Source: Anaerosoma tenue (GTDB taxonomy: Bacteria; Actinomycetota; Coriobacteriia; Anaerosomatales; Anaerosomataceae). From it: DNA of 64,000 nt. Where the stretch lies: NCBI RefSeq assembly GCF_023161965.1, contig NZ_JALNTY010000001.1, positions 602,501-666,500 on the forward strand, read 5' to 3'. Positions 48,409 through 64,000 of the stretch are shown here, in pieces. The notes below the pieces were generated by a model. The model did not search any database, had not been told where the DNA came from, and worked only from the letters and a program-made list of their open reading frames with translations. Position 1 is the first letter of the stretch. The number at the start of each line of letters is the position of its first letter. The position numbers and the translations under genes are program-made.

Positions 48409-49158
48409 TCAGTCGATGTCCAGAGCAGTGAGTTCGTGTGCCACGATAACACGCCCCCCGAACGCCCCACGTGCCTGCCGCCCGGCCTCATCCCGGTCGA
48501 TCGTGGGCCACAGATGCGTGAGGACGAGGGTGTGGGCGCCGGATGCCGAGGCAAGAGCGCCGGCCTCGGCAGGCGTCATATGCGGGGCCCGTCCGGCGTA
48601 CTCCGCGGGGAGCGTGGCCTCAGCGAGCAGTACCTGCGCGCCGCGTGCCGCTGTCTCCACGGCCGGGCCGTACGCCGTGTCGGAGGTGTAGCACACCCGG
48701 GCGTTACCCGCCTCCACGACGAACGAAAACGCGGGATCCACGTGGTCGGCAGGGTGCGGCACCAGCGTCACGTCGCCCACGACCACGGGAACGTTCACCT
48801 CGAGCGTTCGCATCTCGAACGCCTCTGCCAGCTCGCGGGCTCCCCGCTCACCGAGCAGCGCCTCCATGCGTGGACGGAGGCCGGAGGGGAGCCACAGGGG
48901 GATCGGAGGCACCGGACCCGTGGGGGCGTACCGTAGCGCCGCCTGAAGGGCGAAGACGTCGGCGAAGTGATCCACGTGCCCGTGTGACACGAGCACGGCA
49001 TCCAGGTGCGTGGGGTCCATCACGTGGCCGAGGTTCGACAGGACGCCGCTGCCGCAGTCGAGCAGCACGGCGGTCGAGGACGTCTGCACGAGGTGTCCCG
49101 CGCACGCGCGGCCGGCGTCGGGATACGAGGCTGCGCTTCCGAGCACCGTCAGCCGCAT
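48409..49158 (-). CDS. MBL-fold metal-dependent hydrolase (RNase Z-like)
   Basis: 249-residue metallo-beta-lactamase-fold protein. Metal motif [10 protein letters not shown] (HxHxDH), further ligands in [18 protein letters not shown] and LTHLWP. No exosite typical of true RNase Z is seen, so I leave it as an uncharacterised hydrolase related to RNase Z/cAMP phosphodiesterases; the linkage to rph suggests an RNA or nucleotide role. It overlaps murI by 10 bp. Confidence 0.85.
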
Positions 49159-50072
49159 GTCTCGTCCGCCTCGTGCTCCCGCAGGCGCTCCGCCATCGTG
49201 TGGTCGAACAGCGCCTCGAGCTCGGCCACGTCCACGTGCTTCACCGTCCCGAGTCCACGACCTATGATGCGCGCCCCCAGCGCCCCGAACTCGTCGGGGT
49301 CGCCCGTAGTGGCGTAGACCTCGGTGCGCGTGGCCGACGGTCCGGCACGGTGCCCCCGCAACGTGAGCGTCTCCACCACCTCACGCGCGGTCTCCTCGGC
49401 AGAGGAGATCAGCCGGACGCGGGACCCCATCACCTGCTGGATGGCGGTTTCCAGCAGCGGGAAGTGCGTGCAACCGAGCACGAGCGTATCCACACCGCTT
49501 CGCTTGAGCGGGTCGAGGTAATCGCGCGCCATCTCGTAGAACGCCGGCCTGACGTAGACGCTCCCCATCTGCGAGAGGAGGTCCTCAAGGGTGCCCTCAC
49601 CAAGACGCAGGCCCTGCTCCACAAGGTCCACGAAGCGCGGGGCGGGCGTGGAGAACACGGTCACCCCGGCATCGATCGCGCGTGCGGCCTGGCTGTAGGC
49701 CCCTGACTCGATAGTGCCCACGGTGCCGATCACGCCCACCCTCCGGTTCACTGTGGCCTTCACCGCCGCCCGCGCGCCCGGCTCCACGACTCCGATCACC
49801 GGCACGTCGAACGCCTGCTGCGCCAGCGGCAATCCGGCGGCGGTCGCCGTGTTGCAGGCGACCACGATCAGCTTCACTTCTCGCGCGGAAAGCCACCTGC
49901 CGATCTGCAGCACGAAGCGCCGCACATCGTTCTGGGAGCGGGGGCCGTACGGGCATCGCGCCGTATCACCCAGGTAGATGATGCTCTCGTCCGGAAGGGC
50001 GCGCATGATCTCACCCGCAACGGTCAGCCCGCCGAGCCCCGAATCGAATATGCCGATGGGTAGGTCTCGCAT
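49149..50072 (-). CDS. murI: Glutamate racemase
   Basis: 307-residue cofactor-independent racemase supplying D-glutamate for peptidoglycan. Signatures IGIFDSGLGGLTVAGEI; catalytic cysteines in VVACNTATAAG and LVLGCTHFPLLE. The family N-terminus begins at MRDLPIGIF, ATG 50072. There is no Shine-Dalgarno before it and a TATACT box ends 7 bp upstream, so the transcript is probably leaderless. The alternative ATG at 50108 would add a 12-residue leader with no ribosome site. Confidence 0.95.
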   Translation of the reverse strand: MRDLPIGIFDSGLGGLTVAGEIMRALPDESIIYLGDTARCPYGPRSQNDVRRFVLQIGRWLSAREVKLIVVACNTATAAGLPLAQQAFDVPVIGVVEPGARAAVKATVNRRVGVIGTVGTIESGAYSQAARAIDAGVTVFSTPAPRFVDLVEQGLRLGEGTLEDLLSQMGSVYVRPAFYEMARDYLDPLKRSGVDTLVLGCTHFPLLETAIQQVMGSRVRLISSAEETAREVVETLTLRGHRAGPSATRTEVYATTGDPDEFGALGARIIGRGLGTVKHVDVAELEALFDHTMAERLREHEADETCG

Positions 50073-50079
50073 GGTGTCG

Positions 50080-50085
50080 AGTATA
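50080..50085 (-). promoter_or_regulatory. TATACT -10 box for a leaderless murI transcript
   Basis: Minus-strand TATACT exactly 7 bp before the murI ATG, placing the expected start point on the A of the ATG. The -35 position (ATGCCT) is poor. Confidence 0.5.
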
Positions 50086-50100
50086 GGCGTAGCGCCCGCC

Positions 50101-51168
50101 TCAGGCATCGCCGAGCAGACCCTCGATGGCGCCAGCGATCTCGTGCACCGGCAGGACGGCCCGTGCCGCGCCCAGGTCGATCGCGGCTTTGGGCATGCCC
50201 CATACCGTGGACGTGGCCTCGTCCTGGCAGATCGTGGGAGCCCCGCGATCGTGCAGCGCCTTCAGACCCCGCGCGCCGTCGGCGCCCATCCCGGTGAGCA
50301 GCACGCCGACCGCCTTCTTCGCATAGCTCACCGCCACCGATTCGAAGAGCGTGTCCGCCGAGGGGATATACAGCTGGCCGGGCTGCGGCTTGGTGAACCG
50401 CAGTCTCCGTCCGTCGACCTCCATGTTGGTGCCGGTCGCAGCCAGGTACGCGACTCCCGGCTGGAGCACGTCCCCCTCGGCGGCGGCGGCCACCGTGATC
50501 TTGCACGCGGCGTCCAGCCACGTTGCGAGCCCGGGGACGAACCCGTCCGCGATATGCTGCGCGACCACCACGGGCAGCGGGAAGTCGTGCGGAAGACGCG
50601 CAAGCACTTCTAGGAGCGCCGTGGGTCCGCCAGTAGACGAGCCGATGGCCACGAGGCGCAGTCCGTCGCCCCCTACGTCCGGCGACTCCACAGGAGGCAC
50701 GCCCGTGTGCACGGGCGTACGACGCCCACGTATGTGGGTGATCACCTTCACCCGGGAGAGGATCTTCACGGTGCGGATGATCTGGCGACCGATGGCCTCG
50801 AGGTCGGCCCAGTCCTTCGGCTCCGGCTTCTTCATGACCTCCAGAGCGCCGACGGCGAGCGCGTCGAACGCGCGCCCCATCCCCTCGCCGTACACGGATG
50901 AGGAGACCACCAGTATCGGCGTGGGCGTGAACGCCATGATCCGCTCGGTGGCCTCAAGGCCGTCCATCTTGGGCATGTGGATGTCCATCGTGACCAGGTC
51001 GGGGCGAAGGCGGGCGACGAGGTCGACCGCCTCCTCGCCGTTGGTGGCGGTGCCCACCACCTCGATCACAGGATCGCTCGCCAGAATCTGCGCGAGCATC
51101 TCTCTGGCCACTATGGAGTCGTCGGCTATGACGACCCGGATACGCTGCCCCTCAGCGGTTCCCGGCAC
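50101..51168 (-). CDS. cheB: Chemotaxis protein-glutamate methylesterase CheB
   Basis: 355 residues. N-terminal receiver with phosphoacceptor aspartate in LVTMDIHMPKMDG and acidic DDS pocket; C-terminal methylesterase with catalytic serine in AIGSSTGGPTALLE, histidine in VVAQHIADGF and aspartate in TGMGADGARG. Removes methyl groups (or deamidates) from receptor glutamates after phosphorylation by CheA. GTG start with GGGGGAACAC. Last gene of the chemosensory operon; murI follows after 28 bp. Confidence 0.96.
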   Translation of the reverse strand: MPGTAEGQRIRVVIADDSIVAREMLAQILASDPVIEVVGTATNGEEAVDLVARLRPDLVTMDIHMPKMDGLEATERIMAFTPTPILVVSSSVYGEGMGRAFDALAVGALEVMKKPEPKDWADLEAIGRQIIRTVKILSRVKVITHIRGRRTPVHTGVPPVESPDVGGDGLRLVAIGSSTGGPTALLEVLARLPHDFPLPVVVAQHIADGFVPGLATWLDAACKITVAAAAEGDVLQPGVAYLAATGTNMEVDGRRLRFTKPQPGQLYIPSADTLFESVAVSYAKKAVGVLLTGMGADGARGLKALHDRGAPTICQDEATSTVWGMPKAAIDLGAARAVLPVHEIAGAIEGLLGDA

Positions 51169-51183: not shown

Positions 51184-53505
51184 CTAGCGGATGAGACGTT
51201 CTACCGTGTCGAGCAGCGTGTCCTGATTGAAGACCGACTTGGTGATGTAGGCGTCAGCGCCTGCGTTGATGCCTTCGGCCTTCTCCTCGTCCCGCTCCAA
51301 CGATGTCACGATGATGACCGGGATGTGCTGCAGCATGTCGTCCGACTTGATGGCCTTGGTGAGCTCGAAGCCTGTCATGTTGGGCATCTGGACGTCGGTG
51401 ACGACCGCATCGGGATCGAGACCCTCACGGAGGCGCGCCAGCCCCATCGCGCCGTCGGTGGCGGTCTCCACTTCGTACCCGGCCGCTTCGAAGATGGACC
51501 GCTCGAGCTCGCGGGTGGTGAAGGAGTCCTCGCAGATGAGGATCCGGCTCGGACCTGCCGCCTTCTCCTTCACCGCGGTGCTCCTGCGCACCCTCACGCC
51601 GGTGATCTGTCGGCCGTTCGTCATGAGGTCGGGCACGTTGAGGATGGGCACCACCTCACCCGCCCCGAGGATCGTGACGCCCGCCACGTTGTCCACCCGC
51701 TTGAGGTGCGTCCCCAGGGTCTTGATCACTATCTGCTGCTCGCCCACGAACGCGTCCACGATCAGGCCGAGGCGATGGCCCGAGAAGGAAAGCGTGGCGA
51801 TGGGGATCTTTCCGCCGTTCGACTCATCTGCAACCGCATCGAGGCCAAGGATGTCGCGGAGATGCACGAGCGGCACCGTGCGTCTCTGGCGCCTGATCAC
51901 CTCGTGGCCCTCGACCTTGATGACCTCCGAGGGCTCCACCCTCGCCGTTTCTTCAACGGATGAGGTGGGCAACGCGAACGTCTGACCGCTCACGCGCAAC
52001 AGAAGCGCTCTGATGATCGCGAGAGTGAGAGGGATGGTGAGCCGGAACGTAGAGCCCTTGCCGAGCTCCGACTCCACGTCGAGCGAACCCTTCAGCCGTT
52101 CGACCACGAACTCGCGCACCACATCCATCCCCACGCCGCGCCCGGAGATCTCGGTGATGATGGCGGCCGTGGAGAAGCCCTTCTCGAAGATGAGGTACCG
52201 CGCCTCGCGGTCGCTCATCGACTTCGCTTCAGACTCGCTGAGGTAGCCCTTGCGGATAGCGGCAGCCTTCACACGCTCCGGGTCTATACCGGCGCCATCG
52301 TCGGCGATCTCGATGACGATATGGTCGCCCTCCTGACGGGCCGAGAGCCGGATCGTGCCTTTCGCCGGCTTGCCGAGTGCGACCCGCTCGGCCGCCGGCT
52401 CGATGCCGTGATCCACCGCATTCCGCATGATGTGCACGAGCGGGTCGTTGATCTCCTCGAGCACCTTCTTGTCGAGCTCGGTGTCTCCGCCTTCGACCAC
52501 GAGCTCGACGTCCTTCTTGAACTGCCGGGCGAGATCGCGCATCGCCCGCGGGAAGGTGTTGAAGACCGTGCTCACCGGGAGCATCCGGAGCTCCATCGCC
52601 TGCTCCTGCAGGTCCGAGACGACCGCGGATGTCCGAGAAGTGTCATCGGCATAGGTCTTGGCAAGCGCACTGATAGCGTTGCGCTGCTCGGAGATCGTCT
52701 CATCGAGAAGACGCATGTCGGCCGTGAGCATGCCTTGTTCCTCAGCGGGAAGCATCGCCAGGAGCGACTTCAAGCGCGACCAGAGTTGTTGGACCTCGGT
52801 CGTGACCGACGCGGCGTTCCTCAGGTCACGTACGCGCTGCTCGTCTTTGATCTGCGAGATGACGACCTCGCTCACGAGGTTGAGGAGGCGGTCCACCTGG
52901 CTCGTCTTGATCCGTACCGTCGCCTGTGTCTTGGTCTGGAGCTGCTCCTGCCTGGCAGCAGGCTTCGCGTCCTCGTCGCCGTCGTCCGCAGGCTCGTCCT
53001 CGCCTGCGACGTCCTCATCCGCGTCGTCGACGGCATCGTCGGGCTCCTCGGTCGCAGCGGCGGCCTCAGCGGCAATCGCCACGGGCTCCGCGGGCTCCGG
53101 CGGCGCCTGCACCTCACCGGTCTCGGCCAGGGCGGCCAGACGGCCCGTGAGCGATTCGACATCCAGATCACCCGCGGCGGGCTTGCCCGCGTTCTCGGCA
53201 AGGAACACCACCGCGTCGAGCGCCTCGAAGAAGCTGTCGGTCATGTCGCCGGTGTACGGCATGTCGCCGTCGCGCACCTTCACCATGATGTCTTCCATGC
53301 GGTGCGCGATGTCGGAGATCTCCATGAGGCCGACCATCCGCGACGAGCCCTTGAGCGTGTGGGCATCGCGGAGCCACTGGTCTATCAGCGGCCGGTTCGA
53401 AGGGTCCGCCTCCAGCGTGATGATGCCCTCGTTGAGGCGCTGGAGGAGGTCGGTGGCCTCCTCCTGGAACTTCGCGATGAACGCCGAACGGTCGAACTCG
53501 ACCAT
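51184..53505 (-). CDS. cheA: Hybrid chemotaxis histidine kinase CheA with C-terminal receiver
   Basis: 773 residues. Hpt domain with phosphorylated histidine in DAHTLKGSSRMVGL (about residue 50), an acidic disordered linker (about 150-195) with no clear P2, the dimerisation domain (VDRLLNLVSEVVISQIKDEQR), kinase domain with N box HIMRNAVDHGIEP, DDGAGIDPERV and GRGVGMDVVREFV, CheW-like P5, and a receiver from about residue 650 (ILICEDSFTTRE, phosphoacceptor VVTDVQMPNMTG, TSLERDEEKAEG). CheA-receiver fusions are typical of FrzE/ChpA-like systems that control pili, development or second messengers. 15 bp precede cheB. Confidence 0.95.
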   Translation of the reverse strand: MVEFDRSAFIAKFQEEATDLLQRLNEGIITLEADPSNRPLIDQWLRDAHTLKGSSRMVGLMEISDIAHRMEDIMVKVRDGDMPYTGDMTDSFFEALDAVVFLAENAGKPAAGDLDVESLTGRLAALAETGEVQAPPEPAEPVAIAAEAAAATEEPDDAVDDADEDVAGEDEPADDGDEDAKPAARQEQLQTKTQATVRIKTSQVDRLLNLVSEVVISQIKDEQRVRDLRNAASVTTEVQQLWSRLKSLLAMLPAEEQGMLTADMRLLDETISEQRNAISALAKTYADDTSRTSAVVSDLQEQAMELRMLPVSTVFNTFPRAMRDLARQFKKDVELVVEGGDTELDKKVLEEINDPLVHIMRNAVDHGIEPAAERVALGKPAKGTIRLSARQEGDHIVIEIADDGAGIDPERVKAAAIRKGYLSESEAKSMSDREARYLIFEKGFSTAAIITEISGRGVGMDVVREFVVERLKGSLDVESELGKGSTFRLTIPLTLAIIRALLLRVSGQTFALPTSSVEETARVEPSEVIKVEGHEVIRRQRRTVPLVHLRDILGLDAVADESNGGKIPIATLSFSGHRLGLIVDAFVGEQQIVIKTLGTHLKRVDNVAGVTILGAGEVVPILNVPDLMTNGRQITGVRVRRSTAVKEKAAGPSRILICEDSFTTRELERSIFEAAGYEVETATDGAMGLARLREGLDPDAVVTDVQMPNMTGFELTKAIKSDDMLQHIPVIIVTSLERDEEKAEGINAGADAYITKSVFNQDTLLDTVERLIR

Positions 53506-53535: not shown

Positions 53536-54765
53536 CTAATTCACGATGGTGAACGCCGAACCGATCTGCTTCGACTCGTTCGCCAGGCTCGACAACTGCT
53601 CCGCCGCACCCGCCACCTGCCGGGACGCCGCCGCCGTCTGCTGTGCCACCGACGCGACCTCCCGCATAGCCTTCACGACCTGCTCGGTCGCGCTCCTCTG
53701 CTGCTGCGTCGCCGCCGAGATCTCCTTGGCCGCGGCCGTGGTCTGCTCGATGGTGTCGAGGATCGACTCGAAGCTCTCGCCGGTGGCATGCGCCAGATCC
53801 ACGCCGCCCTCCACCTGCTTGAGCTCCTGCTCGGTGGAGATCACCAGCTCGTTGGCGGCGCTCTGGATCTCGGTCATGATCGTCTCGATCTCACCGGTGG
53901 ACTGCACCACCGACTCGGCGAGCTTGCGGATCTCCACGGCCACCACGCTGAAGCCCTTGCCCGCCTCGCCGGCGCGCGCGGCTTCGATGGCGGCGTTGAG
54001 CGCGAGTATCTTCGTCTGGTCGGCGATGCTGTTGATCATCACCAACACCTGGCCGATCTGCTGGCTGCGCTCTCCCAGCTGCAGGATCTTCGACGCCGAG
54101 GTCTGCGCGCGCGTCTTGATCTGCTCCATCGACCCGAGCGTGCTCATGACGGACTGCTGGCCGTTCTCGGCATTGCCGAGCGACGCCTCCGCCATCTTGA
54201 CGACCTGGTTCGCGTTCTCGGCGATCTGCCGGTACGTGGCGGCAAGCTCCTCCATCGTGGCCGTGGTCTGGCTGATGGACGCCGCCTGCTCCGCCGCGCC
54301 GGAGGCCTGCTGCTCGGTGGCCGAGAGGATCTCCGTAGAGGTCCCGGCGAGCCGCGACGACGATTCCTGCATCTGGCTCAACAGGTAGATGATGAGGTCG
54401 AGCAGCTGGTTGTAGGACCGCGACAACACGCCGAACTCATCCTCCGAGTCGGCGGTGACCTTGTGCCCGATCTCGCTCTGGCACGCTCGCTTGATGCTGT
54501 CGACCACCGAGGTGAGCGGCGCCATCATCTTCCGGCCGATGGCCGATTGGACGATGGCAAGCAACACCAGCACCGCAACGAAGATCGCCACGATGGCGGC
54601 GACCCTCCAGATGACCCCCTGTGTCAGCTGGAGCTCACTGCCGAGGATCAGCCATGCGGCGATGAGCTGCACGGCGTTGGCGATGGCCACCGTGACCAGG
54701 CTCATCAGCGTGTACTTGGCGAGGAAGCTCCCGCGCGTCTTCTGCAGCCAGCCTTTGATCATCAT
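53536..54765 (-). CDS. Methyl-accepting chemotaxis protein lacking an extracellular sensor domain
   Basis: 409 residues. Two membrane helices (about 18-42 and 51-77) joined by only about 8 residues, so no periplasmic or extracellular ligand domain. A HAMP-like segment follows ([39 protein letters not shown]) and then the cytoplasmic coiled-coil with the kinase-control tip [29 protein letters not shown]. Glutamine/glutamate-rich helices give methylation sites. ATG overlaps the cheW stop (ATGA). It may sense membrane state, or pass on signals from a partner such as the DUF4388 or PilB-like protein. Confidence 0.92.
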
Positions 54766-55334
54766 GCTCTCCCGTCACGAGACTCACCGATGGGTTCGAG
54801 TATCTTCTCCACGTTCACGATGCCGATGAGCAGCCCGTCGATGTACACCGAGCCGCTCATGTACTCCGCCTGTGCTTTGTCCAGCGTGGACAAAGGTGGC
54901 TCCAGCGCACCGGTCAGCACGTCCACGATGTCGCCGATCTCATCCACCACGATCGCCGAGACGCACTCGCCGGTCGAGACGATGATGGCGGATGGCAGCT
55001 CCTGCTCGATGTCCAGCTCGGACCGGCTCGGCACCCGGATGAGAGTACCGAGGTCGGTGACCGATACGATCTCACCGCGCACGTTGATCACGCCGAGCAC
55101 GAAATCGGGCACACGCGGGATGCGCGTGACCTCGTACTCGTTGTAGATCTCGCGCACAGCGTCGATCGTGACCGCGTACCACTCCTCGCCCAGCCGGAAC
55201 ATCAACAGCCCGACCGTCTCGTCCGATGCCGCTTCCTCCTGCACCTGCGCGAGCGACTCGGCACGGCGCCTGAGGATGTCGTTCATCTGTGAGGAGACGA
55301 GTGCGTTGTTCGCAGCGATCTCGTGCGTGCTCAC
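54762..55334 (-). CDS. cheW: CheW-like coupling protein 1
   Basis: 190 residues. An N-terminal helix of about 40 residues ([20 protein letters not shown]) precedes the CheW fold: [45 protein letters not shown] and the C-terminal strands with DEIGDIVDV. Links receptor and CheA. GTG start overlaps the stop of the second cheW (GTGA), with GGAGGAGAGG upstream. Confidence 0.92.
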
Positions 55335-55906
55335 GCCTCTCCTCCTTCGTCCTCAGGAACCACGTCGAACGCCCGCGCCGGCACCAGCCGGTCGATGTCG
55401 AGCAGGACCGTGATCCCCTGGGCGAGCCGAACCGTGCCGAGCATCCGGTCTGCGAGCGTGTAGACCGACGACGGAGGCTGGACGCCGCCCGGAGGCAGGT
55501 CGACCACATCCTCGACACTGTCGACGATCAGGCACACGACATGCCCCCGCGTGCGACAGAACACCATCGGTGTCTCAAGCGTGTAGCCGGCATCCTCCAG
55601 TTTGAGAAGCGCACGCAGATCGAGCACCGGAACGACCGATCCCCTGATCTCGATAAGCCCCACCAACGCAGGGTCATCATCCGGGAGCGGCAGCAGCTCG
55701 GCCAGTTGCTGCACCTCCTGAACGACCGCGATCGGCAGACCGTAGAGCTGTCCTGCCAACCTGAACGTCACCGCCCGGTCCACGGCAGCATCAGACGCCG
55801 CCTCGTTCAGCGCGATCTCTTCCTCGAACGGCGAGGACACCGCGTCATCGGTCACAGCGTCCGTTGCGACGGATCCGTTGGTGTCGGTCTTCTTGGTGCG
55901 GGGCAC
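55331..55906 (-). CDS. cheW: CheW-like coupling protein 2
   Basis: 191 residues. A hydrophilic N-terminal stretch of about 45 residues (DTNGSVATDAVTDDAVSSPFEEE) precedes a CheW domain: FRLAGQLYGLPIAVVQEVQQL, LVGLIEIRGSVVPVLDLRALL, VDSVEDVVDLPPG. Start chosen at GTG 55906, six bases after AAGGAG; the GTG at 55921 would overlap that site. Having two different CheW proteins suggests two signalling complexes or a mixed array. Confidence 0.9.
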   Translation of the reverse strand: MPRTKKTDTNGSVATDAVTDDAVSSPFEEEIALNEAASDAAVDRAVTFRLAGQLYGLPIAVVQEVQQLAELLPLPDDDPALVGLIEIRGSVVPVLDLRALLKLEDAGYTLETPMVFCRTRGHVVCLIVDSVEDVVDLPPGGVQPPSSVYTLADRMLGTVRLAQGITVLLDIDRLVPARAFDVVPEDEGGEA

Positions 55907-55917
55907 GTGCCGCTCCT

Positions 55918-57771
55918 TCACTCGGTGAAGCGTAGGACTCTGTTCAGTTCGTCGGCACTCACGTCTCCGGCCTTGACCCTTGCGAGGCCTGCGATCACCA
56001 GCGGACGCATCCCCGCAGCCGTGGCCGCCGCTGAGATCTCCGCGGCGCTCCTGGCCCGCCCAACGACCGCGCGTACCGGCTCGGTGAACGGCAGCACCTC
56101 ATGTATGGCCGTGGCGCCCCTGAAGCCGGTCTTTCCGCAGTTGGGACAACCGCTACCCGCCCGGTCACGCAATCCTGCCGGGGCGCCGGGGATGCGCGAC
56201 GCCAGGGCGCCATCGGTCTCCATCGAGCAGTTGGGGCAGTTCAGCCGCACGAGACGCTGGCCCACGCCGAGCGTCAGCGCAGCCGCGAGGCTGTGCGGCT
56301 CGGCGCCGATCTCGAGCATGCGCCACACGCCCGAAGCGATATCGGCCGCAGGGAACGTGGCCACCACGAGCTTGCCCATGCCGGCCGCCTCGACAGCGAG
56401 ATGCACGTCCTCCACGGTACGGAGCCCGTCCACCGCGATGACGTCGGTATCCTGCCGCATGCCCGCCGCGATGTACGCGGCCGACGACAGACCGCCGGGC
56501 TCGATCATCACCTGGGCCACGGCCGGGATCTCGTGCTCGATCGATTGCTCCACCGAGTACACCGTCTTGCCCACCGATGCCGCGTGCCCGAGCAGTGCGT
56601 AGTACGTGGCGCTCGCGCCACCCGCCACGGGGGCGCAGACGAGAAGGATGCCCCTGCCACGCTCCACCATCGCGTGCAACGCACGCGACTCCGCGTCGGA
56701 CACACCGAGCTCCACGAGGGTGCGCGGCTGCCGCAACGCGGAGAGCGTGACCACGAGCCGCTGGCCCGAGATGGTAGGCACCACCGACGTGGTGAGGACG
56801 AGGTCCTTGTCGGCGATGTGGGTGTGCATCCTGCCCAACGCGGGGCGGCTCGACGGCACCGCACCGAGACGGGTGTACTGCTTGAAGCCGTCGACCAGCG
56901 CGCCTTGCATCGAGAGCGGCGCAGAAGCGATCTTCTCGAGACCGCCCTTGACCCGGTACACGAGGAAGAAGTCGTCCTTGTAAGGCAGCAGGTGGATCCT
57001 GCTGGCGCCACGGGCGACAGCATGCTCGAGGATATCCGAGACGAGCACGGCCACCTTGCGGGTGTCGGCGACGGCGAGGACATCGAGGTCGATCGTCTGG
57101 CCCTCTGTCTGCGCAGGCGCGCCTGCGGCCATGCGGTCCATGGTCTCGCTGATGGCCTCTGCCACCGGTTGCGGCGCGGCCTCCTCCACAGGAGCCACCG
57201 GAACCGCCGGTGTCTGATCGAGCGACTCGTCGAAGAAGTCCGATGCCTCCAGAGAGGCCTCCGGCGAGGGCGTTTCCCCGGTGGACTCCGTAGATCGCGC
57301 AACGGGCACGTCGACGGGACCAGCCGCAGCGGCGCCATAGTACTGCTCCAGCGCCGCCGCCACGGAGCTCGCCTCCGCGATGACGGGCTCGACCTCAAGC
57401 CCGATGGCGGACGCGACCAGGTCGAGACCGAACACATCCATCGGGTCGCCTACCGCCACGGTGAGCATACCCTCGATCTCGAACATGGGCAGCACCTCGT
57501 ACCCACGCGCGACAGAGGCGGGCACCAGGGCGACCGCCTCATCCTCTGGCGCATAGCTGGCGAGGTCTACCTGCGGGACGCCCATGTCGTGTTCGAGCAC
57601 CGACAGCACGTCGTTCGCGCTCACATACGCCCGCTCTGTGAGCACGACGCCCTCATGCACGCCACGGGAGCGAGCCGCCTCCACCACGCTCGCTACCTGC
57701 TCGACGGTCATCAGGCCTACGGCCACGAGGCCGTCCAGCACGCGACGGGAGATGCCACTGGCCGGGGACAT
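55918..57771 (-). CDS. PilB/GspE-like protein with degenerate ATPase motifs in a chemosensory operon
   Basis: 617 residues. Residues about 8-146 resemble an MshEN/GspE N-terminal domain (VLDGLVAVGLMTVEQVASVV). An acidic Pro/Ala linker spans about 147-235. Residues about 240-617 follow the secretion/pilus ATPase fold closely: ILEHAVARGASRIHLLPYKDDFFLVYRVKGGL, TSVVPTISGQRLVV and the C-terminal CPNC...CPNCGKTGFRG zinc site (Cys512, 515, 542, 545). But Walker A reads APVAGGASAT (380-389): the lysine is Ala386. The Walker B GEIRD box reads VDGLRT (447-452), losing the catalytic glutamate. It should not hydrolyse ATP by the normal mechanism. ATG at 57771 with AGGGGGCCAC; the longer frame is antisense-like and rejected. 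It lies between the response regulator and cheW; no other pilus gene is in the window. Confidence 0.85.
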   Translation of the reverse strand: MSPASGISRRVLDGLVAVGLMTVEQVASVVEAARSRGVHEGVVLTERAYVSANDVLSVLEHDMGVPQVDLASYAPEDEAVALVPASVARGYEVLPMFEIEGMLTVAVGDPMDVFGLDLVASAIGLEVEPVIAEASSVAAALEQYYGAAAAGPVDVPVARSTESTGETPSPEASLEASDFFDESLDQTPAVPVAPVEEAAPQPVAEAISETMDRMAAGAPAQTEGQTIDLDVLAVADTRKVAVLVSDILEHAVARGASRIHLLPYKDDFFLVYRVKGGLEKIASAPLSMQGALVDGFKQYTRLGAVPSSRPALGRMHTHIADKDLVLTTSVVPTISGQRLVVTLSALRQPRTLVELGVSDAESRALHAMVERGRGILLVCAPVAGGASATYYALLGHAASVGKTVYSVEQSIEHEIPAVAQVMIEPGGLSSAAYIAAGMRQDTDVIAVDGLRTVEDVHLAVEAAGMGKLVVATFPAADIASGVWRMLEIGAEPHSLAAALTLGVGQRLVRLNCPNCSMETDGALASRIPGAPAGLRDRAGSGCPNCGKTGFRGATAIHEVLPFTEPVRAVVGRARSAAEISAAATAAGMRPLVIAGLARVKAGDVSADELNRVLRFTE

Positions 57772-57779
57772 GTGGCCCC

Positions 57780-58160
57780 CTAACCCTGTGCCTTCGAGAG
57801 CTCTTCCGCCACCGCGGCGAGCAGGGTGTCCGGCTCGACGGGCTTGGTCAGGTACTGGTTGGCACCCGTTCGGATACCGGTGGCCATGGCCTGCTCCTCG
57901 GTCTTCGCGGTGAGCATGATGATCGGTATCTGCTTGTAGTTCTGATCGAACTTGAGCAGTCTGCACACGCGATACCCGTCGAGCTTGGGCAACATCACGT
58001 CGAGAAGTATCAGGTCGGGCTTCTCGGCGCGCGCGGTCTCCAGCGCCTCGGCTCCATCGGATGCCGTTATGACCTCATAGCCCCCCGCCAGAAGGATGGC
58101 CTTTATCATCTCGAGGATGGTCGGGCTATCGTCGACCGCAAGGATCCGCGCGCCTGCCAT
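57780..58160 (-). CDS. CheY-like single-domain response regulator
   Basis: 126-residue receiver domain: ILAVDDSPTILEMI (acidic pocket), phosphoacceptor aspartate in LILLDVMLPKLDGY, MLTAKTEEQAM (conserved Thr/Ala) and the lysine in YLTKPVEP. No output domain. This form resembles PilG/PilH-type regulators as much as flagellar CheY. ATG 58160 with GGGAGGGAG upstream. It is 8 bp upstream of the PilB-like gene, a candidate partner. Confidence 0.93.
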   Translation of the reverse strand: MAGARILAVDDSPTILEMIKAILLAGGYEVITASDGAEALETARAEKPDLILLDVMLPKLDGYRVCRLLKFDQNYKQIPIIMLTAKTEEQAMATGIRTGANQYLTKPVEPDTLLAAVAEELSKAQG

Positions 58161-58229
58161 TCCAGTCTCCCTCCCGATTGGTCCGCACCCCATGCGGCCT
58201 TCGCGCACGCGGCGCTCTGACCGGCGGCG

Positions 58230-59816
58230 TCACGCCTTGCCGATCGTCTTCCGACACTCTATCAGACTGCGCTCACACGTCCGCGCCAGCAGGTCCGCCT
58301 GGAACCCGCCGGAGAACTCCGTCCAGCCCCCCTCGGGGCTCTTCTTCAACGCCTTCAACGCGTTCTCGTACTCCTTCGCCGCGGCGTCGAACTGCCGCTG
58401 CGACTTGTAGATGTTGGCAAGATTGAGGTGCGCGAGCGCGAAATCGGCATCGATATACACCGTCTTCTTCAGTTCGCTGATCGCCCGCACGAAGTCACCC
58501 TGGCGCTGATAGATGATGCCGAGGATGTACCGGGGCACCGGGAGCAGCGGGTCGATAGCCAGCGCCTTGTGGCACTCGGCGAGCGCGCGTTCATAGTCGC
58601 CGGTGTCGGCATGCACGTATCCGAGGAGCAGATGCGCCTCGGCATTGTTGGGGTCGGCATCCAGGATGCTGCCGGCGGCCTCGACGACCCGCTCGGGTCG
58701 TCCATCCTTCAGGTCCTTGCGCGCACGCTCGAGCACGGCCCCGACGTCGAGGACAGGGTCTTCCTCCGACCCGCCCGCGCCTGCAGGGGCCGACACGCTC
58801 GCGGGCTCCGATCGCGCGAACGCGCTGCGAGACACGCTCCGGGTACCCCGCTCCGCCGTCGCCTCCGACCGGGCCCTCCGCCGGGAGGCCGAGGATTCCG
58901 CGCGGGTGGCCGCCGATGCGGACCGCCCTGCGGCGTCGGTCGACCGCCCTGTCGAGATCGGCCGGCCCGGGGATTTCTTCCGATAGAGGAACACCCCGCC
59001 CACCTCGACGGCCTCGAAGTCATCGCTGATCGAGGTGAGCGTCTCGGAGTGCCCGATGAACAGGTAGCCGCCCTCGTTCAGGCTGTCGAAGAAGTTCCGG
59101 ACCACGCGCCGCGTCGACTCGATGCGGAAGTAGATGGTGACGTTGCGACAGAAGATGATGTCCCAGTTGCCCATGAGCGAGAGCGGGTACGGTTCCTTGA
59201 TGAGGTTCTGGTAGCCGAAGTCCACGAGGGAGCGCACGCGATCATGGACCCGGTAGTCTCCGCTCATCGTGCGCTCGAAGTGCCGCGAGATGACATCGGG
59301 GGTGACGTTCATCATCGCACGCTTGCCGTAGACGCCGCTCTTGGCGCGCGCGAGCGCCTTGGTAGAGACATCGGTCCCCAGGACCTGCGGCTTCCATCCG
59401 CTCGCGGTGATGCCCGTGTCGAGCAGCGACATGGCGATCGAGTACGGCTCCTCGCCCGTGGAGCATCCGGCCGACCACACCCTGAGGTTGCGATTGCCGG
59501 GTTCTTTCCGTGCCATGACATCGGGGATCACCGAATCACGCAGCGCGTCGAACTGCGCGGGGAACCTGAAGAAGCTGGTCTCGTTTATGGTCACCAGGTT
59601 CAGCAACTCGTTGAACTCGTGGTCGTCGCGCCCGAGCGCGTCGTAGTAGTCGTTCAACGTGTTGTAGCCGAGCCGCGTTGCCCTGGTCACCAGGGAGATG
59701 CGCAGCGAGTCGAGCTTCGACTCCTCGAGGTAGATGCCGGAGTGACGGTGGATGAGGTCCCTGAAGCGTCGGAACTCCTCGATGCTCAGGTCCTTCGCCA
59801 GGTCCTCGTTCAGCAT
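58230..59816 (-). CDS. cheR: Chemotaxis receptor methyltransferase CheR with C-terminal TPR domain
   Basis: 528 residues. Residues about 1-275 are CheR: N-terminal helical domain (FRRFRDLIHRHSGIYL), NETSFFRFPAQFD, the SAM site VWSAGCSTGEEPYSIAM, and DIIFCRNVTIYF. A low-complexity Arg/Ser/Ala linker (about 280-360) leads to about three tetratricopeptide repeats (AHLLLGYVHADTGDYERALAECHKALAID; the next begins PRYILGIIYQRQGDFVRAIS). CheR-TPR fusions are typical of alternative systems such as FrzF. It uses SAM to methylate receptor glutamates. Confidence 0.94.
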   Translation of the reverse strand: MLNEDLAKDLSIEEFRRFRDLIHRHSGIYLEESKLDSLRISLVTRATRLGYNTLNDYYDALGRDDHEFNELLNLVTINETSFFRFPAQFDALRDSVIPDVMARKEPGNRNLRVWSAGCSTGEEPYSIAMSLLDTGITASGWKPQVLGTDVSTKALARAKSGVYGKRAMMNVTPDVISRHFERTMSGDYRVHDRVRSLVDFGYQNLIKEPYPLSLMGNWDIIFCRNVTIYFRIESTRRVVRNFFDSLNEGGYLFIGHSETLTSISDDFEAVEVGGVFLYRKKSPGRPISTGRSTDAAGRSASAATRAESSASRRRARSEATAERGTRSVSRSAFARSEPASVSAPAGAGGSEEDPVLDVGAVLERARKDLKDGRPERVVEAAGSILDADPNNAEAHLLLGYVHADTGDYERALAECHKALAIDPLLPVPRYILGIIYQRQGDFVRAISELKKTVYIDADFALAHLNLANIYKSQRQFDAAAKEYENALKALKKSPEGGWTEFSGGFQADLLARTCERSLIECRKTIGKA

Positions 59817-59835: not shown

Positions 59836-60576
59836 TCACGACACGCCTACGCGGTCGTCGATGCGTTCGATCAGCCCCGCGGCGTGCATGCCGTAGAGGA
59901 TCTTCGCCGTCTCGAAGTCGTTGTAGCCGGTCAGATCGACGAGCTCCCCGACCGATCGGCCGCCGTGGAGATAGCACAGCAGCATCCACTCACGCGGCTT
60001 CAGGTGGATCTCCATCGACTTATCGCCCGGCGCCGAGGCCATGATGAACTCGGTGTCCATATTCGGGATCTTCTGCTTGATCTTGCTCCAGAGCTCGAGC
60101 CTCCGCGACGCCTCCATGATGATGTTCTCCACGGAGACGGAGATGCCGATGTCTTCGTCATCGCAGGTCTCGTCGGGCTCGAACCTCAGCTCCCCCTCCT
60201 CCCACCGGAAGAGATCGAAGAGCGTGTCGTTGATCTGGTCCTGGATGAACGCCTCAAGGACGCGGCCGTCGAGGTAACCCTCGTCCACCAGGATCTGCCC
60301 AAGCCGCCTCCCGGCCTTCTCCTTCTTCTGGATCTTCTGGAGGCCGAGCGCCTGCCGCAACTGCTTCTCCGAGATCACGCCGGCTTTGACCAGGCGTCTG
60401 CCGAGGGACTCACGGTGCCAGTTGGAGCTCGCGAAGAATACGCGACCCTTCTTGAAGCACACCTTGCCCTGCGCATCGGAGCGCTCGAGGTGCAGCGTAC
60501 CGGTCTTACGGCCTGTAGCGAGCAGGCGGAACATGTCCGAGATGGAGAAGTCTCTGAGGTTGCCCTCGAGCGCCAC
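59836..60576 (-). CDS. DUF4388 (PATAN-like) domain protein, first gene of the chemosensory operon
   Basis: 246 residues. The N-terminus is a DUF4388 domain: ALEGNLRDFSISDMFRLLATGRKTGTLHLE...GKVCFKKGRVFFA. A middle helical part (SLGRRLVKAGVISEKQLRQAL, LGQILVDEGYLDGRVLEAF) repeats an MshEN-like helix pattern, and the C-terminal 60 residues look like a winged helix (WMLLCYLHGGRSVGELVDLTGYNDFETAKILYGMHAAGLIER). DUF4388 is found with CheY/PilB-like proteins and gliding or cyanobacterial PATAN regulators. Start chosen at GTG 60576 after AGAGGAG; the frame from 60630 has no ribosome site. Confidence 0.82.
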   Translation of the reverse strand: MALEGNLRDFSISDMFRLLATGRKTGTLHLERSDAQGKVCFKKGRVFFASSNWHRESLGRRLVKAGVISEKQLRQALGLQKIQKKEKAGRRLGQILVDEGYLDGRVLEAFIQDQINDTLFDLFRWEEGELRFEPDETCDDEDIGISVSVENIIMEASRRLELWSKIKQKIPNMDTEFIMASAPGDKSMEIHLKPREWMLLCYLHGGRSVGELVDLTGYNDFETAKILYGMHAAGLIERIDDRVGVS

Positions 60577-60699
60577 GAGTGGTTGCTCCTCTGATCGCGT
60601 AGAGACGGTGGACGAACGGCGCCGCGTCACGGCTGCCGCACAATCGTAGCACGTCGTGCGGGGGCCACAAACGTCACAGAATCTAATCCTGAACAGGTC

Positions 60700-60728: not shown

Positions 60729-60739
60729 GGACCTTGGGC

Positions 60740-60763
60740 ATATGCGAATATGCGAATATGCGA
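60740..60763 (+). repeat. Three tandem copies of ATATGCGA before the arsR gene
   Basis: Exact 8-bp repeat ATATGCGA three times in a row, immediately after the predicted transcription start and 9 bp before the arsR start codon. Position and A/T content suit an operator for the encoded ArsR-family repressor. Confidence 0.6.
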
Positions 60764-60772
60764 GAGGGAGAC

Positions 60773-61102
60773 ATGGACGAGCACGAGTTCTACTGTCTGC
60801 ATTCGGATCTCTGTAAGACGCTCGCGAACGAGAAGCGCCAGATGATCCTCGGGGCGCTCCGCGACGGGGAGCGGAGCGTGAGCGAGATCCAGGCCGCCAC
60901 GGGCATACCGCAGGCCACGCTCTCCCAGCACCTCGCCATCCTCCGTTCACGTGGGGTCGTACGCACACGGCGCGCGGGCAACCACGTCTACTACGACATC
61001 ATCAATCCCAAGATCATCCAGGCATTCGATCTCATCACCGAGGTGATGCAGGAGACGATCGAGCTCCGCAGAGGAACGGTCGAGGGCATCCCAGGGGAAT
61101 AA
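60773..61102 (+). CDS. ArsR-family transcriptional regulator
   Basis: 109-residue winged-helix regulator. Signatures: KTLANEKRQMILGALRDGERSVSEIQ, recognition helix region ATGIPQATLSQHLAILRSRGVV, wing RTRRAGNHVYYDI. The arsenic/zinc-site CVC motif in the third helix is absent; instead two cysteines sit at the N-terminus (FYCLHSDLCKT). It may sense thiols, persulfide or redox change rather than metal, which fits the sulfur-relay genes downstream. ATG at 60773 with GAGAGGGAGAC. The downstream genes start 60 bp later. Confidence 0.9.
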   Translation: MDEHEFYCLHSDLCKTLANEKRQMILGALRDGERSVSEIQAATGIPQATLSQHLAILRSRGVVRTRRAGNHVYYDIINPKIIQAFDLITEVMQETIELRRGTVEGIPGE

Positions 61103-61125
61103 CCGCTGCCGCGCGCGGCAGCGGT
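61102..61125. repeat. 24-bp perfect palindrome between arsR and dsrE-like gene
   Basis: Perfect self-complementary 24-bp sequence, ACCGCTGCCGCG and its complement, beginning at the last base of the arsR stop codon. No T tract follows. It could attenuate, protect or process the transcript between regulator and structural genes. Confidence 0.6.
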
Positions 61126-61162
61126 CGTAGGGTCCGTATGACGAGGCAAAGGGAGGCGCACG

Positions 61163-61645
61163 GTGACTGACGAAGGCAAGAAGAGCCTCGCGATGGTGGT
61201 GATGAGCGGCGACATGGACAAGTTGTTCGGCGCGTTCATCATCGCCAACGGCGCGGCCGCGATGGGTATGGACGTGACGATGTTCTTCACGTTCTGGGGC
61301 CTGCGCGCGATCAAGAAGGACGTCCGCACCGGCAAGACGTTCTTCGGCAAGATGCTTGGCGCGATGTACGGCGGCGACATCATGAAGGCCAACCCGAGCA
61401 AGTTCAGCTTCGGGGGCATGGGCCGCTGGATGTTCGGCAAGATGATGGGCAAGCACAACGTCCAGAAGCTGAATGAGATGCGCGATCTGGCTGTGCAGCT
61501 CGGCGTGAACATGTACGGCTGCCAGATGTCGATGGACGTCATGGAGATCCCGCAGGAAACCTTCATCGATGGCGTGCAGGACCCCGTGGGCGTGGGCTTC
61601 TTCCTGCTGAAGGCCCAGGACGCGGACATCCAGCTGTTCATCTAG
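61163..61645 (+). CDS. DsrE family protein (DsrE2-like)
   Basis: 160-residue DsrE/DsrF/DrsH-like protein. Pattern: SLAMVVMSGDMDKLFGAFIIANGAAAMGMDVTMFFTFWGL, a region of Met-rich sequence, and the conserved cysteine in GVNMYGCQMSMDVM. DsrE-type proteins carry sulfur as persulfide and pass it to or from TusA. GTG start with GGGAGGCGCACG. Located directly upstream of tusA, as in many sulfur-metabolism loci. No N-terminal membrane anchor. Confidence 0.9.
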   Translation: MTDEGKKSLAMVVMSGDMDKLFGAFIIANGAAAMGMDVTMFFTFWGLRAIKKDVRTGKTFFGKMLGAMYGGDIMKANPSKFSFGGMGRWMFGKMMGKHNVQKLNEMRDLAVQLGVNMYGCQMSMDVMEIPQETFIDGVQDPVGVGFFLLKAQDADIQLFI

Positions 61646-61663
61646 CACGGATCCGGGAGAGAC

Positions 61664-61686
61664 CCGCCCGCTGATGCTGCGGGCGG
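61664..61686 (+). repeat. Hairpin between dsrE-like and tusA genes
   Basis: Perfect 8-bp arms (61664-61671 and 61679-61686) with 7-nt loop in the 90-bp gap. No T tract; a likely mRNA stabiliser or partial terminator. Confidence 0.5.
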
Positions 61687-61735
61687 TGGACAGTGAAGGC
61701 GCACGACGTGCGCACCGATCGGGAAAGGAACCATC

Positions 61736-61978
61736 ATGTCTGACGACGTCAAGGTCGACCTCGAACTGGACCTCAAGGGCCTGCTCTGCCCCCTGCCGAT
61801 GGTGAAGGTCAGCCAGAACATCAACAACGTGCCCGTGGGTGGCGTGATCCGCGCTGTCGCCACCGACCCGGGCGCCATGGCCGACATCCCCGCGTGGGCG
61901 CAGTCCACCGGCAACGAAGTCCTGTCCGCCGACAAGGAAGGCTCCGAGTTCGTCTTCCTCGTCAAGCGAGTCAAGTAG
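61736..61978 (+). CDS. tusA: TusA-family sulfurtransferase
   Basis: 80 residues with the defining motif LKGLLCPLPMVKVSQ (CPxP, active-site cysteine), then VGGVIRAVATDPGAMADIPAWAQSTGNEVL. TusA proteins carry persulfide sulfur between DsrE-like proteins, IscS and sulfur-oxidising or Hdr-type complexes. Twenty bp upstream of the NarI/DsrM-like gene. Confidence 0.94.
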   Translation: MSDDVKVDLELDLKGLLCPLPMVKVSQNINNVPVGGVIRAVATDPGAMADIPAWAQSTGNEVLSADKEGSEFVFLVKRVK

Positions 61979-61997
61979 CGGGGGCTCACCACCTACC

Positions 61998-62723
61998 ATG
62001 GAAACCTATCTCTGGATCACATCCGTGTGGGGTGTGTACATCGCGCTAGCGGTGTTCATCGTGGGGATGGGGTGGCGCGTGTACCAGTGGGCGACCACCC
62101 CCAAGTCCCCCGTGCGTCTCGGCATGTTCCCGAAGCCTGCGACCAGGGGCGGGCGCTTCTGGAAGATGCTCAAGGACACGTTCGTTGCACCCCACTCGGC
62201 CAAGATCGAACCCAAGATGTACTTCTTCTCGATGCTGTTCCACATCGCGGCCCTGGCCGCGTTCGTGGGTCACCTGCGCATCCTCGGCGAGTACCCCATC
62301 CTGCCCGACCTCCTCGGCGAGCACGGTATGGACACGTTCGCCGCGTGGGCGGGCTCCATCGCCGGCACGCTGATGCTCGTGGGCATCATCTTCTGGATCG
62401 GCCGCAGGACCTTCGGCCCGTACAAGAACCTCTCCGTGCCCGAGGACTACCTGCTGCTGTTCCTGCTCTTCGGCGTGATCGTCATGGGCGACCACCTGCG
62501 ATTCGTGTACGGCAGCTTCATCCACGCCGACACCTACCAGGCGTGGTTCCAGAGCCTGCTCGCGTTCAAGCCCGCGTTCCCCGACAAGCTGCTCGCCGGC
62601 AACGTAGGGTGGTCGCTCGGCACGCACATGCTCTTCACGGACCTGTTCCTGATCTACTTCCCGTTCAGCAAGCTGGTGCACGCCATCGGCTCGCTGGCCG
62701 CGAACTACGTGAGGAGTGAGTGA
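61998..62723 (+). CDS. NarI/DsrM-like membrane cytochrome b subunit
   Basis: 241 residues, about five membrane helices. Resembles the nitrate reductase gamma / DsrM family. Histidines suited to heme ligation: LFHIAALAAFVGHLRIL, GDHLRFVYGSFIH and GTHMLFTDLFLIYFPFSKLVH. Would take electrons from menaquinol (or give them) and pass them to the adjacent Fe-S subunit. Stop overlaps the ATG of the next gene (TGATG). Confidence 0.85.
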   Translation: METYLWITSVWGVYIALAVFIVGMGWRVYQWATTPKSPVRLGMFPKPATRGGRFWKMLKDTFVAPHSAKIEPKMYFFSMLFHIAALAAFVGHLRILGEYPILPDLLGEHGMDTFAAWAGSIAGTLMLVGIIFWIGRRTFGPYKNLSVPEDYLLLFLLFGVIVMGDHLRFVYGSFIHADTYQAWFQSLLAFKPAFPDKLLAGNVGWSLGTHMLFTDLFLIYFPFSKLVHAIGSLAANYVRSE

Positions 62724-64000
62724 TGATGGAGGCGATCCGGCTCGAGACCCTCACGGGCGTCATCGACAAGAAGATGAACCGCCAGCTCAAGCAGTACATC
62801 GACATCTGCGCGCGCTGCGCGATCTGCAAGGACGCATGCCATCAGTACGTGGGAACGGGCGACTTCAAGTACCTCCCGGCGCGCAGGGCCGAGCTCATCA
62901 GGCAGATCTACAAGAAGTACTTCGACGGCGCGGGACGCTTCATGCCGGCGCTCTACGAGGCGCGCGATCCTGACGAGAACCTGCTCGACGAGCTCTACGA
63001 CTCCACGTACGCATGCACCGGCTGCCGCCGCTGCATGTACTACTGCCCCTTCTCGATCGACACGGCATGGATCCTGTCGGTGGCCAAAGCGATCCTCATC
63101 GCGGCAGGCCGGGGCAACGAGATGCTCGGCCAGCTCGCCGACGCCGCGATCTTCAAGGGCGAGAACGCGGCGATGTTCGAGGGCGTCATGCTGAGCGGCT
63201 TCGAGGACATCACCGAGGAGGTCCGCGCCATCACGGGCAACCCGGAGCACAAGGTGCACGTGAACAAGGAGGGCGCCGACATCCTGTACGTGGCGCTCGC
63301 CGGGGCGCACTCCATCCGGCCCGCGGCCGTGATCTTCGAGGAAGCCGGCGAGAACTGGACGATCTCGATGTTCGAGGCCGCCAACTACGGCTTCTTCTAC
63401 GGCGACACCGAGAAGGCGCGGCTGATCACCAAGCGCTACATCGACGAGGCCAAGCGCCTCGGCGTGAAGGAGATCGTGGTGCCGGAGTGCGGCCATGCCT
63501 ACCGCGTCGCCGAGTTCTTCTACGAGGCGTGGAGCAAGGAGCCGATGCCGTTCAAGGTGAGCCACATCCTTGAGAAGGTCGACGAGTACATCAAGGCCGG
63601 ACGCATCACGGTGGACAAGAACAAGATCGACGGCAAGGTCACGTACCACGACCCGTGCCAGCTTGGCCGCAACGGCGGCAAGTTCGAGCAGCCGCGCGAC
63701 ATCGTGAAGGCGGTCACCGACGACTTCGTGGACCTTACCCCCAACCGCGCCGAGCAGTGGTGCTGCGGCGGTGGCGGCGGGATCGTGGCCATGGAGGAGT
63801 TCAAGGACGTGCGGCTGAAGTCGGGTATCAAGAAGGTCGAGCAGCTCCGGGCGAGCGGCGCCAGCGTGCTGGCGTGTCCGTGCGAGAACTGCCGCCTGCA
63901 GATCGAGGAGCTCAACGAGGTGCACGGGCTCGGACTCGAGATCTGGCAGGTCATCGACCTGGTGGTGGCTGCCATGCCGCTTCCTGGGAACGACGCAGCC
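62723..64000 (+). CDS. DsrK/HdrD-like iron-sulfur subunit (3' end cut by window)
   Basis: At least 426 residues; the frame is open at the window end. Two [4Fe-4S] sites: Cys29, 32, 35, 39 and Cys98, 101, 104, 108 (CxxCxxCxxxC each). A first CCG-like domain around Cys256 (VPECGHAYRV) lacks most of its cysteines, as is usual in DsrK. The second is complete: Cys312 (DPCQLGRNG), Cys347-348 (WCCGGGGG), Cys387 and 390 (CPCENC). This CCG domain binds the non-cubane cluster that reduces disulfides in HdrB/HdrD. With the cytochrome b subunit it forms a DsrMK-like pair. The ATG at 62723 is coupled to the preceding stop. Confidence 0.9.
   Translation, partial: MMEAIRLETLTGVIDKKMNRQLKQYIDICARCAICKDACHQYVGTGDFKYLPARRAELIRQIYKKYFDGAGRFMPALYEARDPDENLLDELYDSTYACTGCRRCMYYCPFSIDTAWILSVAKAILIAAGRGNEMLGQLADAAIFKGENAAMFEGVMLSGFEDITEEVRAITGNPEHKVHVNKEGADILYVALAGAHSIRPAAVIFEEAGENWTISMFEAANYGFFYGDTEKARLITKRYIDEAKRLGVKEIVVPECGHAYRVAEFFYEAWSKEPMPFKVSHILEKVDEYIKAGRITVDKNKIDGKVTYHDPCQLGRNGGKFEQPRDIVKAVTDDFVDLTPNRAEQWCCGGGGGIVAMEEFKDVRLKSGIKKVEQLRASGASVLACPCENCRLQIEELNEVHGLGLEIWQVIDLVVAAMPLPGNDAA

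Follow-up and report, generated by a model that had tools for sequence, protein, structure and literature searches.

A PilB-like protein without ATPase motifs in a chemosensory operon of Anaerosomatales, most likely a signalling or docking part

The chemosensory operon and its PilB-like gene

The communication between chemosensory systems and pilus motors is an open question in the field. The locus described here raises this question in a special form: what is the role of a protein which has the fold of the pilus-assembly ATPase PilB, has lost its catalytic motifs and is encoded within a chemosensory (che) operon? The gene was found in the window, i.e. the whole analyzed stretch of 64,000 nucleotides from Anaerosoma tenue, and its product is called pseudo-PilB in the following. 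The cluster comprises these genes:

59836..60630, minus strand: DUF4388 (PATAN-type) protein, operon gene 1 (Pfam PF14332, E 2e-33)
58230..59816, minus strand: CheR with C-terminal TPR repeats (Pfam)
57780..58208, minus strand: response regulator (RR), single-domain (Pfam)
55918..57771, minus strand: pseudo-PilB, a PilB/GspE-like pseudo-ATPase of 617 amino acids (ORF, Pfam, alignment, structure model)
55331..55921, minus strand: CheW 1 (Pfam)
54762..55334, minus strand: CheW 2 (Pfam)
53536..54765, minus strand: MCP with two TM helices and no ligand-binding domain (Pfam)
51184..53505, minus strand: CheA with C-terminal receiver domain (Pfam)
50101..51168, minus strand: CheB (Pfam)
49149..50108, minus strand: MurI, glutamate-racemase-like, end gene of the conserved cluster (Pfam, orthologous loci)

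With DUF4388 equated with the PATAN domain in Pfam nomenclature, the operon order is PATAN/DUF4388-CheR/TPR-RR-pseudo-PilB-CheW-CheW-MCP-CheA-CheB-MurI. The initial annotation had placed the PilB-like gene between a response regulator and two cheW genes, which was borne out: the RR gene lies upstream with a gap of 8 bp, and cheW1 follows downstream, overlapping the stop codon of pseudo-PilB by 4 bp. According to Pfam, the operon contains the full set of che core genes expected of a Type-IV-pilus-type system (CheA, CheW, MCP, CheR, CheB and RR). Its CheA comprises one Hpt. The loop between the two TM helices of the MCP has a length of about 13 residues and is somewhat longer in relatives; no ligand-binding domain was found in this MCP. 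In most orthologous loci the chemosensory cluster is closed by the glutamate racemase gene, which is odd company for che genes.

Pilin and PilC genes had been reported as missing from the window, and this also held true, since neither homologues of PilC and PilD (queries from the own genome) nor a pilin-like motif were detected in the 64,000 nucleotides. A distance of about 118 kb separates the pilus operon from the pseudo-PilB gene. The part of the window at 60734-64000 (plus strand) contains a divergent ArsR-type regulator gene followed by DsrE-like, TusA-like and heterodisulfide-reductase-like genes, and was judged by eye to be a sulfur or redox cluster.

Conserved fold and loss of the catalytic motifs

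Within pseudo-PilB, four regions are of importance:

57325..57753, minus strand: N-terminal MshEN-like domain (residues 7-149), which retains the fold but has degraded c-di-GMP motifs (Pfam, model, motif scoring)
56608..56634, minus strand: degenerate P-loop, residues 380-388, APVAGGASA (alignment, model)
56416..56433, minus strand: degenerate Walker B, residues 447-452, VDGLRT (alignment)
56137..56238, minus strand: zinc-binding region, Cys512, 515, 542 and 545 (invariant in alignment)

Pfam assigned T2SSE to residues 236-611 (E 4e-53) and MshEN to residues 63-149 (E 5e-19). The AlphaFold2 model showed a mean pLDDT of 84.5, and its superposition on solved PilB/GspE structures resulted in a full fold match with a Z of about 35 over about 380 residues (35.4 to 5zfr/5tsh), the MshEN domain alone giving a Z of 12.3 to 5htl. 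The four zinc-binding cysteines were invariant in 38/38 sequences, as were many structural positions. Pfam matches, superposition and cysteines together confirm the earlier view that the fold of a pilus/secretion ATPase, its zinc cysteines and an MshEN-like domain are kept. Within the ATPase core of the model, the sole spot of low confidence (pLDDT <50) is formed by residues 383-385 of the P-loop.

For the catalytic motifs an alignment of 52 orthologues, all from Anaerosomatales (class Coriobacteriia), was used. As the initial annotation had read from the window sequence, Ala386 occupies the position of the Walker A lysine and V447-D-G-L-R-T452 that of the VGEIRD box. At position 386 the orthologues comprise arginine (26), alanine (15), serine (7), glycine (3) and cysteine (1), but not a single lysine. 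The glutamate of Walker B (position 449) is likewise missing in all of them and is replaced by G, S, P, A or T. The aspartate of the Asp box was found in 0/52 orthologues, with a glutamate in one sequence, and the histidine of the His box in 0/52. The three PilBs of the own genome all keep GPTGSGKST and (V/I)GEIRD. Arginines common to PilB are retained in pseudo-PilB, which shows only about 28-30% identity to these PilBs. In the NCBIfam equivalog model for PilB (TIGR02538) it reached 256.7 bits compared to a cut-off of 675.65, a cut-off which is weak as a lone test since the own intact PilBs also fall just below it with 646.8 and 635.1 bits. Since the catalytic features of PilB motor ATPases were looked for and are missing, pseudo-PilB is placed outside this group, although it may work like a signalling form of PilB.

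Distribution and probable output of the operon

The fully decayed family was found in one order only, and its named records belong mostly to Anaerosomatales, Coriobacteriia or Actinobacteria. Within the class, matches outside the order reached at most about 240 bits, the level of an ordinary PilB, compared to at least 500 bits for true members. As far as the contigs reach, the gene order is identical in 46 named loci. Among 69 genomes of the order, 56 contain both pseudo-PilB and the operon CheA and 10 contain neither; the three mismatches (G003, G028 and G036) look like contig ends. A Fisher value for this co-loss is only indicative, given the linkage of the genes and their shared ancestry. 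One genome (G040, 99% complete) encodes three intact PilBs and PilT, but lacks CheW, the operon-type CheA and pseudo-PilB. This indicates that pseudo-PilB tracks the Che system and not the pili. With a constant position in all loci examined and the joint loss with CheA, the assignment of the pseudo-ATPase to the chemosensory system is supported.

A second, different chemosensory system is encoded in the own genome (C3:313000-331500), comprising an MCP, CheW, CheB, a CheA with P2 domain and CheC. Genes for PilT and for a GGDEF protein lie close to it. In two genomes without the Che system of the window (G059 and G124), the CheW matches found were consistent with this second system only.

A flagellar output of the operon was ruled out, since the flagellar marker FlhA was detected in 0/69 genomes of the order. 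This leaves pili as the probable output, and PilB, PilT, PilC and a prepilin peptidase are present in the own genome. Two cultured members of the order were described as rods without motility whose surface is covered in pili-like appendages; in one of them, Parvivirga hydrogeniphila, these occur only when ferrihydrite is present (PMC9686372). Because these members are non-motile, the pilus output may consist in attachment or mineral contact instead of twitching.

A receiver-PilT fusion was considered as a partner lost together with the Che operon and was rejected, since a receiver-bearing PilT-like protein, or a diverged form of it, also occurs in genomes without the operon. In the own genome (C1:94809-96293) this PilT carries an intact P-loop behind an N-terminal receiver-like domain, whose conserved lysine is apparently missing. 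Most of the order contains the PilT-fused domain or a divergent version of it.

Proposed role of pseudo-PilB

In Myxococcus xanthus, the Walker A variant K327A of PilB has defects in both ATP hydrolysis and the assembly of pili and nevertheless signals via the Dif chemosensory proteins for the production of exopolysaccharide; nucleotide-free PilB was proposed as the signalling state by the authors (PMC5544727). The natural Ala386 of pseudo-PilB occupies the position of this substitution, which suggests that nature has fixed a signalling-competent, ATP-free PilB of the kind known from Myxococcus as a laboratory mutant. With its ATPase site lost and its fold and operon position kept across the order, pseudo-PilB most likely acts in signalling or docking and not as a motor. 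The scaffold linking CheA signalling to pili, which the initial annotation had proposed, gains support from the parallel to Myxococcus.

Altogether, we consider it fairly probable that pseudo-PilB is a pilus motor which was recruited to a pilus-controlling che operon, lost its ATP chemistry and now works as an adaptor for docking and signalling, tied to the DUF4388/PATAN protein. The gene of a pilus-assembly motor would have been duplicated and recruited into the operon; its ATP chemistry would then have been lost stepwise, with the fold of the ring subunit retained for protein contacts. The result would be an ATP-independent, PilB-shaped ring or subunit, with the DUF4388/PATAN protein of the operon, the carrier of a predicted c-di-GMP motif, as its likeliest partner. 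This contact would couple both the Che system and the level of c-di-GMP to the genuine PilB motors, and in this way to the activity of the pili. Since the MCP comprises no ligand-binding domain, the signal of the array would probably come from a protein partner instead of an external ligand. The contacts are predicted by analogy, and pseudo-PilB may serve the Che system as an input, as an output or as both. The openly licensed literature was searched for reports of a PilB-like pseudo-ATPase encoded among che genes, and none was found.

A purely upstream position can be considered as a possible, if less probable, alternative. Here, pseudo-PilB would act before CheA, either by signalling a constant 'nucleotide-free PilB' state or by gauging the state of the pilus base, and would feed the sensor-less MCP. 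The incorporation of the gene into the che operon, the MCP without ligand-binding domain and the identity of A386 with the signalling K327A substitution are in agreement with this, as is the parallel to the M. xanthus PilB acting upstream of Dif. However, the M. xanthus PilB is also a working motor and can sense the pilus via its own cycle, which a permanently inactive copy cannot run through.

Rather unlikely is a modulation of the motor itself, by which pseudo-PilB would join or cap the active PilB hexamer or compete for PilM/PilC and thereby throttle pilus extension. The retained PilB fold, the arginines common to PilB, the zinc site and the three intact PilBs of the genome could be explained in this way. 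On the other hand, the low identity to these PilBs (about 28-30%) speaks against it, and the presence of pseudo-PilB follows CheA and not PilB, as can be seen for G040 with its three PilBs and no pseudo-PilB.

Location of the c-di-GMP motif

The adaptor proposed above would receive its c-di-GMP input from the neighbouring DUF4388 protein, and the binding motifs of both proteins were compared. The consensus of MshE, (R/K/L)LGxx(LVI)(LVI)xxG(LVI)(LVI)xxxxLxxxLxxQ, occurs in two copies (PMC11731258), and a 24-residue motif spacing was used, which fits the PilB of the own genome. In the pseudo-PilB family the glycine of motif I is changed to leucine in 51/52 and the glutamine to alanine in 45/52 sequences; in motif II the arginine and the leucine are lost. 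The protein of the window matches 9/22 consensus positions, an amount reached by 209/500 shuffles, and its orthologues match 9 to 15 of 22. In the curated c-di-GMP model of NCBI (cut-off 38 bits) it scored 11.6 bits and two orthologues 31.8 and 12.5, compared to 53.2 and 45.8 bits for the two operon PilBs of the own genome. Some of the orthologues may, judged by these scores, show residual c-di-GMP binding.

The initial annotation had suggested that pseudo-PilB itself could be a second-messenger sensor, i.e. that its MshEN domain senses c-di-GMP for the Che system. With a score of 11.6 bits and a motif at shuffle level this suggestion was not supported, and we regard such a receptor function as very improbable, although the MshEN fold is present, the genome contains 11 GGDEF matches, and the homologues of two Actinomycetota outside the class (G521 and G463, see below) pass the c-di-GMP model.

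The motif is located instead in the first gene of the operon:

60235..60408, minus strand: two MshE-type c-di-GMP motifs in the DUF4388 protein, residues 75-132 (motif scoring, curated model)

This protein matches 19/22 consensus positions (0/500 shuffles), with 18-19 in most orthologues. It passes the curated model with 44.7 bits compared to the cut-off of 38, and matches the sequence of the MshE crystal structure (E 4e-6). A Foldseek search with the DUF4388 model did not recover the MshE-like helices and gave no significant PDB match, the helices thus being predicted from sequence. Based on the motif scores, it is the DUF4388 protein, as the predicted carrier of the c-di-GMP motif, to which the second-messenger role should be assigned.

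DUF4388 proteins occur at two places only in the genome, in the Che operon and in the pil operon, where the second one (51% identical) is encoded between the two pilB genes. Thus, the Che operon holds relatives of two proteins of the pilus operon, PATAN and PilB, with c-di-GMP binding predicted for the PATAN one. According to Pfam no receiver domain is fused to the DUF4388 protein of the operon, the RR being a separate gene. Among the control genomes DUF4388 was found in Synechococcus, Thermus and Deinobacterium, an occurrence on which its equation with PATAN is based in part, and in the openly licensed literature it was named only in the context of nitrite reductase. In Synechocystis, PATAN regulators of chemotaxis-like systems bind PilB (PMC10519157, PMC12288463). 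By pairing a dead copy of the motor with a c-di-GMP-motif protein of a PilB-binding type, the operon offers a compact set of candidate contacts.

Origin and maintenance of pseudo-PilB

The docking and signalling adaptor favoured here implies an ancestor with an intact ATPase site. In three Actinomycetota outside the class (G521, G577 and G463), a similar operon contains a PilB-like gene at the equivalent position. The homologues of these genomes keep the Walker A lysine (NSGKTT, HAGKTA and RSGKTS, respectively) and the Walker B glutamate (IDEI, LDEI and IDEL), whereas their Asp and His boxes are missing, and they share the change of glycine to aspartate in Walker B with the family of the window. 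Both groups form one clade with a support of 100/100, within which the exact branching is unsure due to long branches. In a further genome (G511), an apparently fully intact PilB directly follows the RR of a che cluster, with genes for DnaK, DnaJ and ClpB nearby; the tree leaves its placement relative to the pseudo-PilB clade uncertain.

Homologues in the same position with intact Walker motifs and an adjacent pilus operon had been named in the initial annotation as evidence against its interpretation. The first part of this combination does exist in other classes, in one case fully intact, but in the stretch examined no pilus genes adjoin the PilB of G511. The Walker-intact homologues are read as earlier stages of one lineage. 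In the simplest reading, a che operon would first have taken up a PilB, whose force-generating boxes were then lost, followed in Anaerosomatales by the ATP site.

A further-reaching version is put forward only tentatively. According to this, a pseudo-motor ring would be a dedicated, stoichiometric part of the chemosensory system and a hub joining the c-di-GMP-binding PATAN protein, CheA and pili, the steps of its formation being preserved in living genomes. The captured ATPase would have lost its force-generating boxes, then the ATP site and, in Anaerosomatales, the c-di-GMP site. Due to the surviving partial stages, the order in which force generation, ATP binding and second-messenger binding were lost becomes a question that can be asked.

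Since the homologues elsewhere in a similar operon keep lysine and glutamate, the ancestors could bind ATP, and it could be argued that pseudo-PilB is still an ATPase or an ATP-binding switch with a non-canonical P-loop, as half of the family carries Arg386. This is highly improbable: position 386 varies freely between R, A, S, G and C, neither the Walker B glutamate nor the Asp and His boxes are retained, and the P-loop is poorly ordered in the model. An alternative intact P-loop, which would have contradicted the loss of the site, was not found either. The only GxxxxGKT-like string of the protein, GHAASVGKT (395-403), is too long by one residue, begins with a glycine that is not conserved, and is located after the P-loop helix.

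Compared to a near-identical genome, 23 synonymous and 2 non-synonymous codon changes were counted over 464 codons, and the identity of pseudo-PilB across the order amounts to about 52-81%. Based on this codon comparison, pseudo-PilB is under purifying selection, and the loss of its catalytic residues is, as judged from the alignment, old and complete across the order. The order-wide loss of the motifs, the invariant structural positions and the ratio of 23:2 indicate a maintained protein without ATPase site and not a decaying gene. In one genome (G022, C26:43922-45750) the gene is split over two frames, either by a frame break or by an assembly error. A decaying pseudogene or an annotation artefact, for which only this frame break and the lost catalytic residues could be cited, is refuted by the purifying selection and conservation of a gene that is open in nearly all genomes, and can practically be dismissed.

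Small GTPases were observed at several of these loci. In the operons of G521 and G577 (L186:6803-7315 and L187:7483-8013) a small GTPase gene, missing from the operon of the window, lies between DUF4388 and CheR, and its product is related to the GTPase of the own pilus operon. This pilus operon (C1:527000-546000) comprises two pilB genes, a small Ras-like GTPase, a Roadblock/LC7 protein and a DUF4388 protein. Its GTPase/Roadblock set is reminiscent of the control of pili by MglA/MglB.

Comparison with known systems

Pseudo-PilB has the architecture of MshEN and ATPase core, the zinc tetracysteine and the fold in common with PilB (TIGR02538) and GspE (TIGR02533). It differs from them by the missing Walker A lysine, Walker B glutamate and Asp and His boxes, and by a gene located in a che operon instead of beside pilC or pilin genes. 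With the MshEN/GSPII domain of MshE and of PilF from T. thermophilus it shares the overall N-terminal fold, but the binding motif is degraded and sits instead in the DUF4388 gene.

The Pil-Chp system of P. aeruginosa is similar in the chemosensory control of type IV pili, which is probable here. To our knowledge, the Pil-Chp operon contains no PilB-like gene. Furthermore, its ChpA comprises several phosphotransfer domains compared to one Hpt in the CheA of the window.

The PATAN response regulators PixG and PixE of Synechocystis bind PilB1, and both organisms combine a chemotaxis-like system with a PATAN protein, the contact to PilB being predicted by analogy here. In contrast to PixG and PixE, the DUF4388 protein carries no receiver domain and contains the MshE-type motif, and its operon has a pseudo-PilB of its own. 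A further parallel is PilB/Dif of M. xanthus, where chemosensory signalling is possible for a PilB that lacks the Walker A lysine (PMC5544727). While M. xanthus uses one motor for both purposes and its lysine-less form is a laboratory mutant, the protein described here is a separate, dedicated and naturally inactive component encoded in the che operon.
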